64,000 nt of DNA from assembly GCA_902825965.1 (NCBI GenBank), contig CADEDA010000014.1:7740-71739 (forward strand), given 5' to 3'. Shown here piece after piece: positions 26,822-56,420 of the stretch. The stretch is from an uncultured Gemmatimonadota bacterium (lineage in GTDB: Bacteria; Gemmatimonadota; Gemmatimonadetes; Gemmatimonadales; Gemmatimonadaceae). Each line of letters opens with the position of its first letter. Positions within the stretch are counted from its first letter, which is position 1. Below the pieces are notes generated by a model, which was not told the origin of the DNA, ran no database searches, and was given only the letters and a program-made list of their open reading frames with translations. The translations under genes and the position numbers were made by a program.

Positions 26822-26895
26822 GCCCCCGTAGCTCAGGTGGATAGAGCGACGGTTTCCTAAACCGCAGGTCGGCGGTTCGAGTCCGCCCGGGGGCA
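26822..26895 (+). tRNA. tRNA-Arg, anticodon CCU
   Basis: 74 bases forming a full cloverleaf: acceptor stem GCCCCCG with CGGGGGC, D-loop region GCTCAGGTGGATAGAGC, anticodon loop TTCCTAA reading CCT, and T arm GGCGG-TTCGAGT-CCGCC with discriminator A. It reads AGG arginine codons. CCA is not encoded. The top pair of the anticodon stem is an A-C mismatch, which is unusual but tolerable. A 6-bp hairpin (TGCGTG/CACGCA, 26801-26817) sits just upstream. It lies ~1 kb left of the dif-like site, on the strand expected for leading-strand transcription. Confidence 0.93.
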
Positions 26896-26897
26896 TC

Positions 26898-26930
26898 GCG
26901 CAAGGACATCCACCCCTTGCGCTTCATTCA
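26898..26930 (+). terminator. Hairpin after tRNA-Arg
   Basis: Perfect 8-bp stem GCGCAAGG (26898-26905) and CCTTGCGC (26915-26922) with a 9-base loop, beginning three bases after the tRNA. The following TTCATTCAA is only moderately T-rich. It probably ends or processes the tRNA transcript. Confidence 0.55.
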
Positions 26931-27015
26931 ACCGGCCGGATCCGCTAGCTTTCACGGCTTGTCGCGAGCGTGGCGTTCGGACCTCGCGAGACTTCACCCA
27001 ATCCCGCCTCTTCGC

Positions 27016-27663
27016 ATGGCCAACCTCGACACTTCCGCGGTCTCCGAGCTCGATGCCGAGACGATCGCCGAGACCTTCCAGAAGTACCAGAAGCCGATCA
27101 TCGGCGCAGTGATCGTGCTGGCCGCGGCGGGTGGCGGATTCTGGATGTGGCGCAGCTCGGCGCAGATCCGCGAGACCCGGGCGGGGCAGGCGTACCAGGT
27201 GGCCGAAGGCGCCTTCGCGTCGGGCAACATGCCGGCCGCCAAGGTCGAGCTGGAGAAGATCACCGGCCGGTACGCCGGGACCGCAGCCGGGACGCAGGCG
27301 TCGATGTTGCTCGCCCAGTTGCTGTTCGACGAGGGCAAGTTCGACGACGGCCTCAAGGTGCTCCAGGCCGCGGCGGGCAAGGCGCCGGAGTCGCTCGTGG
27401 CGGGTCTGCAGGGCCTGATCGCGGCCGGCTACGAGGGCGCTGGCAAGGCGGCCGAAGCCGCAGCAGCCTACGAGGCGGCTGCCAGCCGGGCGCAGTTCGC
27501 GGTGGATCGCGACCAGTACCGGATGGAGCGCGCTCGGGTGCTGGTGGGCAGCGGTGATGCCGCGACGGCGAAGGCGATCTACGAGGAAATCGGTGGTCGC
27601 GACGACTCTCCGTTCGCGGGCGAGGCGAAGGTCCGACTGGGTGAGATCGCGGCCAAGCAGTAA
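27016..27663 (+). CDS. Single-pass membrane protein with TPR-like repeats (YfgM-like)
   Basis: 215 aa. A short cytoplasmic N-terminus (LDAETIAETFQKYQKP) precedes one transmembrane segment at ~27-45 (IIGAVIVLAAAGGGFWMW), followed by an Ala-rich helical repeat domain (AYQVAEGAFASGNMPAAKVELEKI, SMLLAQLLFDEGKFDDGLKVLQAA, ERARVLVGSGDAATAKAIYEEIG). This layout resembles YfgM, an ancillary SecYEG/periplasmic chaperone protein, but it could be another TPR scaffold. ATG 27016 is chosen because it precedes the anchor directly; longer starts would run into the tRNA terminator. It is the last + strand gene before the dif-like gap. Confidence 0.75.
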   Translation: MANLDTSAVSELDAETIAETFQKYQKPIIGAVIVLAAAGGGFWMWRSSAQIRETRAGQAYQVAEGAFASGNMPAAKVELEKITGRYAGTAAGTQASMLLAQLLFDEGKFDDGLKVLQAAAGKAPESLVAGLQGLIAAGYEGAGKAAEAAAAYEAAASRAQFAVDRDQYRMERARVLVGSGDAATAKAIYEEIGGRDDSPFAGEAKVRLGEIAAKQ

Positions 27664-27738
27664 TTCGGTGAGCTGAGACGGCACTCGAACTGTCGCCACC
27701 GGCGGCTCCACGCGACACTTCAGAGGTAGGGTGTGATG

Positions 27739-27770
27739 AAGCGGCCTAACACATTGTTGTTAGGCCGCTT
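27739..27770. terminator. Perfect inverted repeat, probable bidirectional terminator
   Basis: Arms AAGCGGCCTAACA (27739-27751) and TGTTAGGCCGCTT (27758-27770) pair over 13 bp with a 6-base loop. It lies between convergent genes, so it can end transcripts from both sides. There is no long T-run; the arms' own A and T ends give only short ones. Confidence 0.6.
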
Positions 27771-27851
27771 GTGCATTTGAGCAGTTGTGGTCAGTGGCGC
27801 CATGATGGGCTGATGTCGTGTAGAGCCCCTAGACCTCCGCCGTCTCGGCGT

Positions 27852-27879
27852 ACTACCCATAATATGTATTATGTAAACT
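27852..27879. other. dif: Putative dif site (XerC/XerD chromosome dimer resolution)
   Basis: A 28-bp site of two 11-bp arms around a 6-bp centre. Left arm ACTACCCATAA (27852-27862) ends in the CATAA of XerC-type arms. The centre is TATGTA (27863-27868). Right arm TTATGTAAACT (27869-27879) equals, from memory, the XerD-side arm of Bacillus subtilis dif; overall I count 24 of 28 matches to that site. It sits in a non-coding gap exactly where gene orientation flips from + to -, as expected at the terminus. A XerD-type recombinase is encoded at 49888-50802. XerC and XerD acting here would resolve chromosome dimers at division, with FtsK. Confidence 0.85.
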
Positions 27880-27914
27880 ACGAATCCACGAGACTGTGGG
27901 AAACTCAGTCCGGC

Positions 27915-28721
27915 CTACAGTTCGCGCAGAGTGCCCTCAAATACGATCCGCCCCTCCCCGGACAACGAGGGCTGCTCACGGTCTGGCCCGGTCAGGCGGA
28001 CGGTCAGGGTTCGGCCAGACCGCGTCTCCAACGCCGTCCGGTCCCCGGACTCCCCCCACTCCGCCAGAAGGACCGCGCAGGCCACCGCCCCGGTACCGCA
28101 CGCCAGGGTCTCGGCTTCGACGCCTCGTTCGTACGTGCGCATCTGCCAAGTCCCGTCCGGGCGCCGCGACACCCAGTTCACGTTGGCGCCGGCCTTGAGG
28201 CTCGAATGGTAGCGGAGGTCGGGCCCGCGGCTCCCCAGCTCGACGTGAGCGACATCGGGGGTTCGGACCACCAGATGCGGCACCCCGGTGTTCACGAAGC
28301 CCAGCCTGAGCTCTCCCGGCACTCGTGAGATTCCCGCCTCCGCCCGGAGTCCGCTGTGGGGCTGCAGGTCGATCTCCGGCAGACCGTCGCGGAGCCTGGC
28401 GTGGATGGTCCCCGCGTCCGTGCGGAACGTCAGGCCCGACGGGTCCGCGGCTCCGAGCTCGACCGCCAGCCGCGTCGCGCACAGCGATGCGTTTCCACAG
28501 AGCTCGCCTCGGCTCCCATCTCGATTGAGGTAGATGAGGCCAAAGTCATGGCCAGTAACGGTTTGGAGGACGGCAACTCCGTCCGCTCCGACCCCCGTAT
28601 GGGGAGCGCAAACGGCGCGGACGAATCCGGCGTCTGACACCCGACGCACCAGCAGGTCGTCCCCGCGTCCGTCGAAGAACACGAAGTCGTTGCCCGAACC
28701 GGAGAGCTTCCAGAACCTCAC
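27915..28721 (-). CDS. dapF: Diaminopimelate epimerase
   Basis: 268 aa. Converts LL- to meso-diaminopimelate for peptidoglycan and lysine. Both catalytic cysteines are visible: one in GELCGNASLCATRLA, the other in ETLACGTGAVACAVLL. VRFWKLSGSGNDFVFFDGR is the standard N-terminus, and GVPHLVV plus YERGVEAET complete the pattern. The start GTG 28721 overlaps the upstream stop by four bases (GTGA), which is preferred over a longer frame beginning at 28757. First - strand gene right of the dif-like site. Confidence 0.95.
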   Translation of the reverse strand: MRFWKLSGSGNDFVFFDGRGDDLLVRRVSDAGFVRAVCAPHTGVGADGVAVLQTVTGHDFGLIYLNRDGSRGELCGNASLCATRLAVELGAADPSGLTFRTDAGTIHARLRDGLPEIDLQPHSGLRAEAGISRVPGELRLGFVNTGVPHLVVRTPDVAHVELGSRGPDLRYHSSLKAGANVNWVSRRPDGTWQMRTYERGVEAETLACGTGAVACAVLLAEWGESGDRTALETRSGRTLTVRLTGPDREQPSLSGEGRIVFEGTLREL

Positions 28722-29440
28722 ACGCGCCCCGTCAGCGCCCACCAGCGCAGGCGCCACACCATGAGGATGGCCTCGCGCACGATGTGCCCGCTCATCTTGC
28801 TCTCGCCCTCCGTGCGGTCCGAGAACACGATGGGGATCTCCACGGGCTTGAACCCCTTCCGCATCGCGCGGAACGACATCTCGATCTGGAACGCGTAGCC
28901 GTTGGACCGAACGTCGTCCAGGTCAATCGCCTTGAGCACGCGCCGGTGGAAACACTTGAACCCGCCGGTCGCGTCCCATAGCCGCATCCCGGTGACCATG
29001 CGCGCGTAGATGTTGGCCCCGTAGCTGAGCAACAAGCGGCTGATCGGCCAGTTCACCACGGTGACCTTGCCGTTCAGGTACCGGCTGCCCAGCACGAAAT
29101 CGGCGGTCTCGGCGGCCGTGAGGAACTCCGGCAAGTGGGCGGGATCGTGGCTGAAATCCGCGTCCATCTCGAAGACGAGTTCGTAGTCCCGCTCGAGGGC
29201 CCACTTGAAGCCGTCACGGTACGCGGTTCCGAGCCCCAGCTTCCCCGCCCGCCGAAGCAGGTGGATCCGCGGGTTCCGTTCGGCCATCTGCGCGATGAGC
29301 TCGCCGGTGCCGTCCGGCGAGTTGTCATCGACGAACAGCATCTCGAGCCGCGGGTCCTGCGCCAACGTGCGTTCCGCCAGCTGGGCGACGTTGGCGCGTT
29401 CGTTGTAGGTCGGCGTGATGACGAGCGCCGCCTCAGGCAT
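28718..29440 (-). CDS. GT2 glycosyltransferase, polyprenol-phosphate mannose synthase type
   Basis: 240 aa. Dpm1-like enzyme that moves a sugar from a nucleotide donor to a polyprenyl phosphate. VITPTYNERANVAQLAERTL, LFVDDNSPDGTGELI, the metal-binding EMDADFSHDP, and ATGGFKCFHRRVLKAID are characteristic. No C-terminal transmembrane domain, so it is the soluble short form. It overlaps yfhO by 8 bp. The product, perhaps a lipid-linked mannose or glucose, probably feeds membrane GT-C type enzymes such as the neighbouring YfhO protein (inference). Confidence 0.88.
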   Translation of the reverse strand: MPEAALVITPTYNERANVAQLAERTLAQDPRLEMLFVDDNSPDGTGELIAQMAERNPRIHLLRRAGKLGLGTAYRDGFKWALERDYELVFEMDADFSHDPAHLPEFLTAAETADFVLGSRYLNGKVTVVNWPISRLLLSYGANIYARMVTGMRLWDATGGFKCFHRRVLKAIDLDDVRSNGYAFQIEMSFRAMRKGFKPVEIPIVFSDRTEGESKMSGHIVREAILMVWRLRWWALTGRV

Positions 29441-49887: not shown

Positions 49888-50802
49888 TCAGCCGCGCGGG
49901 TGGAACTGGCGATGCACCTGGCGCAGGTGTTCGCGATCCACGTGGGTGTAGATCTGGGTGGTGGAGATGTCGGCGTGCCCCAGCATCTCCTGGACCGCGC
50001 GCAGGTCGGCGCCGCCCTCGAGCAGGTGCGTGGCGAACGAGTGCCGCAGCGTGTGGGGCGTGACCGCCTTGGTGAGGCCGGACGCCTCCACGTACTTGCG
50101 CAGGATCTTCCAGGCTCCCATGCGCGTGAGCGGCGTGCCCCGTGCGTTCAGGAACAGGTGCCCGGCCCCGGCTCCCTTCTCCAGTACCGGTCGCAGTTCA
50201 CGCAGGTACACGGCGAGCGCCCCGGCAGCCTTCCGCCCGATCGGTACGAGCCGCTCCTTGCCGCCCTTGCCGAAGACCCGCACCACCATGTCCTCGAGCA
50301 GGACGTCTTTGGTGCCGATGCCGAGCCACTCGCTCACGCGGAGGCCGGCCGCATACGCGAGCTCGAGCATCGCGCGGTCGCGGAAGGCCAGTGGTTCGTC
50401 CAAGGTCACCGCGCCGATCAGGCGATCCACCTCGTCCGCGGTGAGCACGTCGGGCAGCACGCGCCATCGCTTGGGGGTCTCCAGGCGCTCGCTGGGGTCC
50501 TTGCTCACGATCCCCTCGGCCAGCAGGAACCGGTACCAGGTGCGCAGAGCCGATATCCCGCGCCGGATGGAGCTCGGTGCGAGGCCCAGGTCCTTGAGGT
50601 GGTAGACGAACTCGCGCAGGTGCGCCGCCGTCAGGCCCTCCGGACCGCTGACCCCCTTGACCGTCGCCCAGGTCGCGAGCCGGGCCAGGTCGCGGCCGTA
50701 GGCTTCGTTGGTACGGAGGCTCGCGCCCTGCTCCAGCGAGAGGAACTCGTCGAAGCGTTCGAGCTGGAACGCGCGGGCGACGGCATCGGCGGGCGTGGAC
50801 AC
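49888..50802 (-). CDS. xerD: XerD-type site-specific tyrosine recombinase
   Basis: 304 aa. Resolves chromosome dimers by strand exchange at dif together with XerC, activated by FtsK. N-terminal SAM-like core-binding domain (FDEFLSLEQGASLRTNEAYGRDLARLATWA). Catalytic domain: Arg in AAGLRVSEWLGI, Lys in VRVFGKGGKERLVPIG, HTLRHSFATHLLEGGADLRAVQEMLGHADISTTQIYTHV with HXXR, the second His and the nucleophile Tyr, then REHLRQVHRQFHPRG, a typical XerD-like tail. The probable target is the dif-like site at 27852-27879. XerC is not in the window. Confidence 0.92.
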   Translation of the reverse strand: MSTPADAVARAFQLERFDEFLSLEQGASLRTNEAYGRDLARLATWATVKGVSGPEGLTAAHLREFVYHLKDLGLAPSSIRRGISALRTWYRFLLAEGIVSKDPSERLETPKRWRVLPDVLTADEVDRLIGAVTLDEPLAFRDRAMLELAYAAGLRVSEWLGIGTKDVLLEDMVVRVFGKGGKERLVPIGRKAAGALAVYLRELRPVLEKGAGAGHLFLNARGTPLTRMGAWKILRKYVEASGLTKAVTPHTLRHSFATHLLEGGADLRAVQEMLGHADISTTQIYTHVDREHLRQVHRQFHPRG

Positions 50803-55166: not shown

Positions 55167-56420
55167 TCACCCCGTGACGCGGCGGAGCGCGATACTGACG
55201 TTGTGGCCGCCGAAGCCGGACGAGTTGGACAGGGCCGCGTGCACCTCGCGCTTCACCGGGACGTTCGCGGTGCAGTCGAGGTCGCACTCCGGGTCCGGAG
55301 TCGTGAGGTTGATCGTCGGCGGGATGATCCCGTGCCGGATCGCCATCGCCGTGAAGATGGCTTCCACCGCGCCCGCCGCCCCGAGCATGTGGCCGGTGGA
55401 GGACTTGGTGGAACTCACGTTGAGGCCGGTCGCGTGCGGTCCGAAGACCTTCTTGATGGCCCGGATCTCGTTGGGATCGTTCAGCGGCGTCGAGGTGCCG
55501 TGGGCGTTCACGTACTGCACGTCCGCCGGCGACAGCGCCGCATCCTCGAGGGCCCGGCGCATGGCGCGCTGCAGGCCTTCGTGGTCCTCGGGCTGCCCCG
55601 TCAGGTGGTACGCGTCGCCGGTCGCGCCGTAACCGACGATCTCGCAGTAGATCGTCGCGCCGCGCGCCTTGGCATGCTCGTACTCCTCGAGCACCACGGA
55701 GGCCGAGCCCTCGCCGAGCACGAAGCCGTCGCGGGTCTGGTCGAACGGCCGCGATGCGGTGGTGGGCGAATCGTTGCGCGTCGACAGCGCCTGCATGTTG
55801 CCGAAGCCGCCGATCGACATCGGCGACACCGCCGCCTCGGAGCCGCCGGCGATGATCACGTCGGCGTCGCCGTACGCGATCATGCGGAAGGCATCACCGA
55901 TCGCGTGCGCGCTGGTGGCGCAGGCCGACTGCGTGGCGTAGTTGGGGCCCTTCGCCTTGAAGCGCATGGACACCACACCCGCCGCGATGTCGCCGATGAA
56001 CATCGGCACGAAGAACGGCGAGATGCGGTTGGGGCCCGACGTGAAGTACGTGTGGCACTGCTCCTCGAACGTCGCGATCCCGCCGATGCCGGACCCGATG
56101 ATCACGCCGGTGCGCTCGGGGACGTACCCCGTGCCGTCGCCGAAGCCGGCATCCTGCATCGCCTGCACCGACGCCGCCATCGCGTACTGCGTGTACAGGT
56201 CCGCGCGCTTGGCCTCCTTGCGGTCCATGTACTGCGTGACGTCGAATCCCTTGACCTCGTGCGCGAACTTGACCTTGAAGGCCGAGGCATCGAACCGCGT
56301 GATCGGACCGCCCCCCGACTTGCCGTCGAGGAGGGCCTGCCACGACGTCGCCACGTCATTGCCCACCGACGTGACGCACCCCGCTCCCGTGATGACCACC
56401 CGGCGCTTCAAGGATCCCAT
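55167..56420 (-). CDS. fabF: 3-oxoacyl-ACP synthase II
   Basis: 417 aa elongating condensing enzyme of type II fatty-acid synthesis. RVVITGAGCVTSVGNDVATSW opens it; the active-site Cys is in YATQSACATSAHAIGDAFRMIAYG; the two His are in VQYVNAHGTSTPLNDPNEIRAI and SSTKSSTGHMLGAAGAVEAIF; SNSSGFGGHNVSIALRR ends it. It follows acpP by a single base gap, the usual acpP-fabF pair. Confidence 0.97.
   Translation of the reverse strand: MGSLKRRVVITGAGCVTSVGNDVATSWQALLDGKSGGGPITRFDASAFKVKFAHEVKGFDVTQYMDRKEAKRADLYTQYAMAASVQAMQDAGFGDGTGYVPERTGVIIGSGIGGIATFEEQCHTYFTSGPNRISPFFVPMFIGDIAAGVVSMRFKAKGPNYATQSACATSAHAIGDAFRMIAYGDADVIIAGGSEAAVSPMSIGGFGNMQALSTRNDSPTTASRPFDQTRDGFVLGEGSASVVLEEYEHAKARGATIYCEIVGYGATGDAYHLTGQPEDHEGLQRAMRRALEDAALSPADVQYVNAHGTSTPLNDPNEIRAIKKVFGPHATGLNVSSTKSSTGHMLGAAGAVEAIFTAMAIRHGIIPPTINLTTPDPECDLDCTANVPVKREVHAALSNSSGFGGHNVSIALRRVTG

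Follow-up and report, generated by a model that had tools for sequence, protein, structure and literature searches.

The window analysed here, a stretch of 64,000 nucleotides from an uncultured Gemmatimonadota bacterium, contains a 251-bp gap (27664-27914) on which the genes from either side converge. On its left ends a gene for a TPR_21 protein (26917-27663, plus strand; Pfam PF09976) and on its right ends dapF (27915-28757, minus strand; TIGR00652, over cutoff). The change of strand extends beyond these two neighbours: among the called ORFs of the window, 20 of 22 to the left lie on the plus strand and 30 of 33 to the right on the minus strand. Thus, the convergent gap is as originally predicted, while the claim that all gene orientations reverse at this point is true of nearly all ORFs and not of every one. 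A tRNA-Arg gene (CCT; 26822-26895, plus strand) immediately precedes the TPR gene, at a distance of 1 kb from the site described below.

The gap harbours a 28-bp sequence on the plus strand (27852-27879) composed of a left (XerC) arm, ACTACCCATAA (27852-27862), a centre, TATGTA (27863-27868), and a right (XerD) arm, TTATGTAAACT (27869-27879). This AT-rich, partly palindromic sequence has the layout of known dif sites, with two 11-bp arms around a 6-bp centre. When both strands of the window were compared with dif of Bacillus subtilis, using what we take to be its sequence, this 28-mer was the best match with 24 identities in 28; it was also the best match to Escherichia coli dif (20/28), for which the query was validated by its presence in 5,384 of 5,426 E. 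coli genomes. The next independent places in the window reached 15/28 (B. subtilis dif) and 16/28 (E. coli dif). The original prediction of a dif site had given the same sequence and coordinates, which are exact, and the same 24/28 score, which we reproduced with this reference. It had also raised the prospect of a better dif match elsewhere; the source genome (4.07 Mb, a draft of 73 contigs) contains no such match and has the site in one copy. These results support the interpretation of 27852-27879 as the chromosomal dif of a Gemmatimonadaceae-type bacterium. By itself such a dif is ordinary and of a kind already known.

Is the site conserved among relatives? A core pattern, ATAA-N6-TTATGTNAA, searched with zero mismatches, was present in 190 of the 220 order genomes searched, nearly always in one copy each, and the reversed pattern, used as a control, had no match in the 220 genomes. 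(An early search pattern, TATNNTATGTAAA, was mis-specified, as was a phylum-wide pattern with the prefix TAN, which nonetheless recovered dif sites at the class level.) In an information profile of 47 dif loci of the family, the inner sides of the arms are nearly invariant, the 6-bp centre is variable and the flanks are at background. Mean pairwise identity between loci is 78% within dif versus 27% in the flanks. The surroundings are conserved as well. Across 94 loci (two families of the order, 47 loci each), the TPR gene is on the XerC (left) side of dif and on the plus strand in 81/81 loci where it was found, and dapF is on the XerD (right) side and on the minus strand in 87/87. A copy of dif between the TPR gene and dapF, which the original prediction suggested looking for in related genomes, is therefore conserved order-wide and in one orientation.

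Does dif mark the terminus? The original prediction proposed, as a check, to look for a GC-skew extremum at the site. GC skew in the window is too weak for an extremum to be seen at dif, and the window maximum falls at 56,055. Because of this weak signal, and because the source genome is a draft whose contig is too short, we analysed skew in closed relatives. In a genome of the same genus with a 3.14-Mb main contig (G004), both the sign of the skew and the strand bias of the genes switch at dif: across 260 kb around the site, cumulative GC skew peaks at 1,479,010, about 30 bp from dif itself (1,479,036-1,479,063). In another family member (G070; 4,636,964 bp), the curve, taken over 200 kb, peaks at 1,930,413, roughly 100 bp from dif (about 1,930,286). 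Thus, in both closed relatives the extremum coincides with the orthologous dif, as had been anticipated. Consistent with a terminal position, the distance between dnaA and dif amounts to 42-48% of the chromosome in five closed genomes of the family (G004, G032, G070, G078 and G105). Two genomes of family f2, each a single contig (G217:C1 and G334:C1), have dif only 26-30% of the chromosome away from dnaA, and in G217 the local skew maximum is about 15 kb off dif; rearrangement and assembly error are both possible causes of this offset. What dif marks is the place of dimer resolution, close to the terminus; Kono et al. 2011 (PMC3025954) argue that replication forks do not have to meet precisely at dif.

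The proteins expected to act at dif are also encoded. The window carries xerD (49888-50802, minus strand; TIGR02225, 353.3 bits against a cutoff of 329.6), whose product is the expected partner of the right arm, and the source genome also encodes a second protein that matches Xer and a single FtsK, whose gamma domain scores over cutoff. In the window, 22 kb separate xerD from dif, and in both G004 and G032 about 21 kb; Kono et al. (PMC3025954) report that other bacteria mostly carry xerD close to the origin. By analogy with the E. coli system, XerC and XerD would each occupy an 11-bp arm, and FtsK, brought in at the septum, would activate XerD, so that chromosome dimers are resolved; XerCD recombination presumably takes place at the dif of the window in this manner. 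In E. coli, FtsK-gamma acts at the XerD side (PMC5357621). As an observation on the terminus itself, GGGCGGGG and GGGGCGGG are strongly skewed toward the leading strand around dif in G004 (35:3 and 33:4) and are possible FtsK orienting sequences; GGGCAGGG is skewed 12:1 around dif in G070.

The original prediction held that no other feature explains the site. This is correct for the 28-mer, but a conserved box that adjoins it had been overlooked; an alignment of dif loci and their information profile reveal it as a further conserved block past the XerD arm. In the window, a 9-mer that resembles a DnaA box, TGTGGGAAA, occupies 27895-27903 on the plus strand and starts 15 bp after dif, at the second of two phased positions; the first (27885-27893) holds no recognisable 9-mer in the source genome. 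Across the 94 loci, the accessory element consists of one or two TGTGGANAA 9-mers on the XerD side, which start 5/6 and 15/16 bp after dif. A match to TGTGGANAA in at least 8 of 9 bases was present within 41 nt downstream of dif at 93 of these loci; in the same loci, two upstream control regions gave 4 and 2 matches and one downstream control region gave 1, and shuffled sequence gave a rate of 1.7%. Several features of the element emerged: (i) the second position (offset 15/16) is the stronger one, with 86 of the 94 loci matching at 8/9 or better; (ii) both positions are filled at 7/9 or better in 43 loci; and (iii) an extra base in the spacer usually displaces both copies in step. Two 9-mers phased in this way are one helical turn apart and lie on the same face of the DNA. 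Genome-wide, TGTGGRNAA shows no consistent excess over a reversed control. A lone copy is thus common background, and only its position and spacing are informative. A conserved, phase-locked accessory motif therefore sits next to dif, and we are highly confident that the locus combines dif with a real conserved accessory element.

What binds the accessory box? Read on the opposite strand, the 9-mer is TTNTCCACA. This sequence is found 53-67 bp upstream of dnaA in all 30 loci that were checked, a position and a sequence that would be expected of the native DnaA box lying across the promoter of dnaA. The dif boxes TGTGGANAA match the native DnaA box consensus of the same organisms, and the DnaA protein of the source genome has an intact domain IV motif (GGRDHSTVIHS). 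The sequence TTGACTTNTCCACA, of which the 30 checked loci are occurrences, is present in a single copy per genome in 66 of 81 genomes. Because the same 9-mer serves as the putative native box upstream of dnaA, DnaA is the most likely binder of the box at dif, with a probability that we judge, from sequence, to be slightly better than even.

Other readings of the locus must be weighed against this one, beginning with the 28-mer itself. Its AT-richness and partial palindromy, together with a tRNA gene 1 kb away, would also suit a chance palindrome, a mobile-element attachment site or a plasmid-type pdif; the nearly invariable single copy, the conservation across the order, the constant synteny and the skew extremum at dif in closed relatives refute these in practice and leave them a negligible chance. 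The box could instead be part of dapF, as a terminator or a 3' regulatory element, with dapF next to dif on the right in 87 of the 94 loci. The distance between the box and the dapF stop codon ranges from 0 to 338 bp, whereas the distance between the box and dif is fixed; furthermore, no box extends into the dapF ORF, and the 7 loci that lack a dapF match all retain the box. Since the spacing to dif is fixed and that to dapF variable, the element belongs to dif and not to dapF, and the terminator reading, rejected on this spacing, is highly improbable. A role for the box as an FtsK orienting sequence (KOPS) or as a docking site for FtsK-gamma would fit its location, since FtsK-gamma acts on the XerD side. 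The box, however, points away from dif, TGTGG[AG]NAA is rare (11 in 859 kb of G004) and it is other octamers, such as GGGCGGGG, that carry the leading-strand skew. We rejected the KOPS reading on these three grounds, and consider the box very unlikely to serve FtsK in either way.

The remaining alternatives concern which protein binds and to what end. Tandem copies of a DnaA-box-like sequence in non-coding DNA are also what a DnaA titration or nucleotide-exchange site would look like (datA or DARS), in which case the box would be at the terminus by happenstance and without effect on Xer. Titration needs no particular spacing, whereas throughout the order the box keeps its distance from dif to within about 1 bp, and we find this explanation unlikely. 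A stronger contender is a plain dif whose adjoining motif is bound by a protein other than DnaA, for example a dedicated Xer accessory factor comparable to ArgR/PepA at cer. In family f2, the box at the dnaA promoter is TTTTCCACA in the genomes listed, whereas the box at dif is mostly TTCTCCACA or TTGTCCACA; read on the same strand, the variable base in the middle of the box is A at the dnaA promoter and G or C at dif. This mismatch implies that the binder may be another protein. In the same direction, the 10-bp tandem phasing is absent at the dnaA promoter, and paired DnaA boxes are not usually separated by a single base pair. On the other side, the same family of 9-mers is found at dnaA in several genomes, and we know of no other protein with this box specificity. 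Binding by a non-DnaA factor thus appears quite possible, if somewhat doubtful.

What could DnaA do at dif? The 28-mer is usually regarded as self-sufficient and under the control of FtsK. If DnaA binds the box, it would sit beside the XerD arm, where it would gate recombination or report on it, and FtsK, or the passage of a replication fork, would then clear it from the box; such a regulatory role is conceivable and decidedly less than an even bet. More generally, we propose tentatively, with a likelihood that falls somewhat short of even, that a site by the XerD arm, dedicated and helically phased, is bound by DnaA or by another protein of equal specificity, and that this binding couples the state of replication to dimer resolution in Gemmatimonadales and in Peregrinibacteria, where the layout is similar. 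If true, this arrangement would be a physical link between the control of initiation and the last step of chromosome segregation. The accessory element also provides a sharper signature with which to locate dif in draft genomes of Gemmatimonadota. As a separate observation, one protein, about 630 aa in length, has two tandem matches to the DnaA-type AAA+ domain (Bac_DnaA) and adjoins a TPR-type protein (G000:C40:2927-4471; G004:C1:1683587-1685128). Its translation has no evident DnaA-box-binding domain, and double Bac_DnaA matches are also present in G070, G078, G105, G217 and G334.

How does the arrangement compare with known systems? Like dif of E. coli and dif of B. subtilis (acted on by CodV/RipX), the site has 28 bp in an 11-6-11 layout with the right arm TTATGTNAA conserved; as in the bacterial dif/XerCD/FtsK system in general, it is single-copy and at the terminus, and XerD and FtsK-gamma are present. 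Unlike E. coli dif, it is followed after the XerD arm by a phased DnaA-box-like element; in E. coli, 300 bp were read to each side of dif and contained no such box. For the same phylum, passages of Kono et al. 2011 (PMC3025954) give a predicted dif in the one Gemmatimonadetes genome of that study, and the text of that paper, as searched, contains no discussion of elements flanking dif. The combination of a Xer core with a nearby site for a cellular protein, the binder being a prediction here, recalls the plasmid Xer sites cer and psi. At cer, about 180 bp of accessory DNA is engaged with ArgR/PepA (PMC5357621); here, in contrast, the accessory DNA is about 20 bp long, the dif is chromosomal and the motif is different. 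Finally, apart from the variable base in family f2, the 9-mer has the sequence of the native box that these genomes carry ahead of dnaA and in this respect resembles the DnaA boxes of oriC and the dnaA promoter; unlike those, this candidate box sits at dif, opposite the origin, and often occurs as a same-strand pair 10 bp apart. Titles and abstracts of open-licence papers on dif in connection with DnaA boxes, TTATCCACA, accessory sequences, Gemmatimonas or Peregrinibacteria contained no evident report of it. The association of dif with an adjoining DnaA-box-like element thus appears to be new here, with no evident prior description, which is not proof that none exists.

The box extends beyond the order. 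In family f4, which belongs to another order of the same class, one locus (L138) has boxes at offsets 5 and 15 and another (L139) has one at 15. In two genera of family f5 (L134 and L136), a TGTGGAAAA box is found on the XerC side of dif and not on the XerD side; the other f5 and f7 dif loci among the class-level loci examined have no box. A scan of named genomes had many Gemmatimonadota among the matches listed, and at least eight records of Peregrinibacteria or Peribacteria and at least one further bacterium carried the same site. Outside Gemmatimonadota and Peregrinibacteria, most of the matches listed look, by eye, like chance or coding matches. In each of those nine genomes (L335-L343, the Peregrinibacteria/Peribacteria records), a palindromic dif-like site, TTAACATAA-N6-TTATGTTAA, is unique, and TGTGGANAA lies about 8-12 bp downstream of it; some also have an inverted copy upstream. 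From its sequence, we infer that the Peregrinibacteria site is a dif. A conserved CAATTGA is also present upstream of the dif-like site in Peregrinibacteria/Peribacteria.
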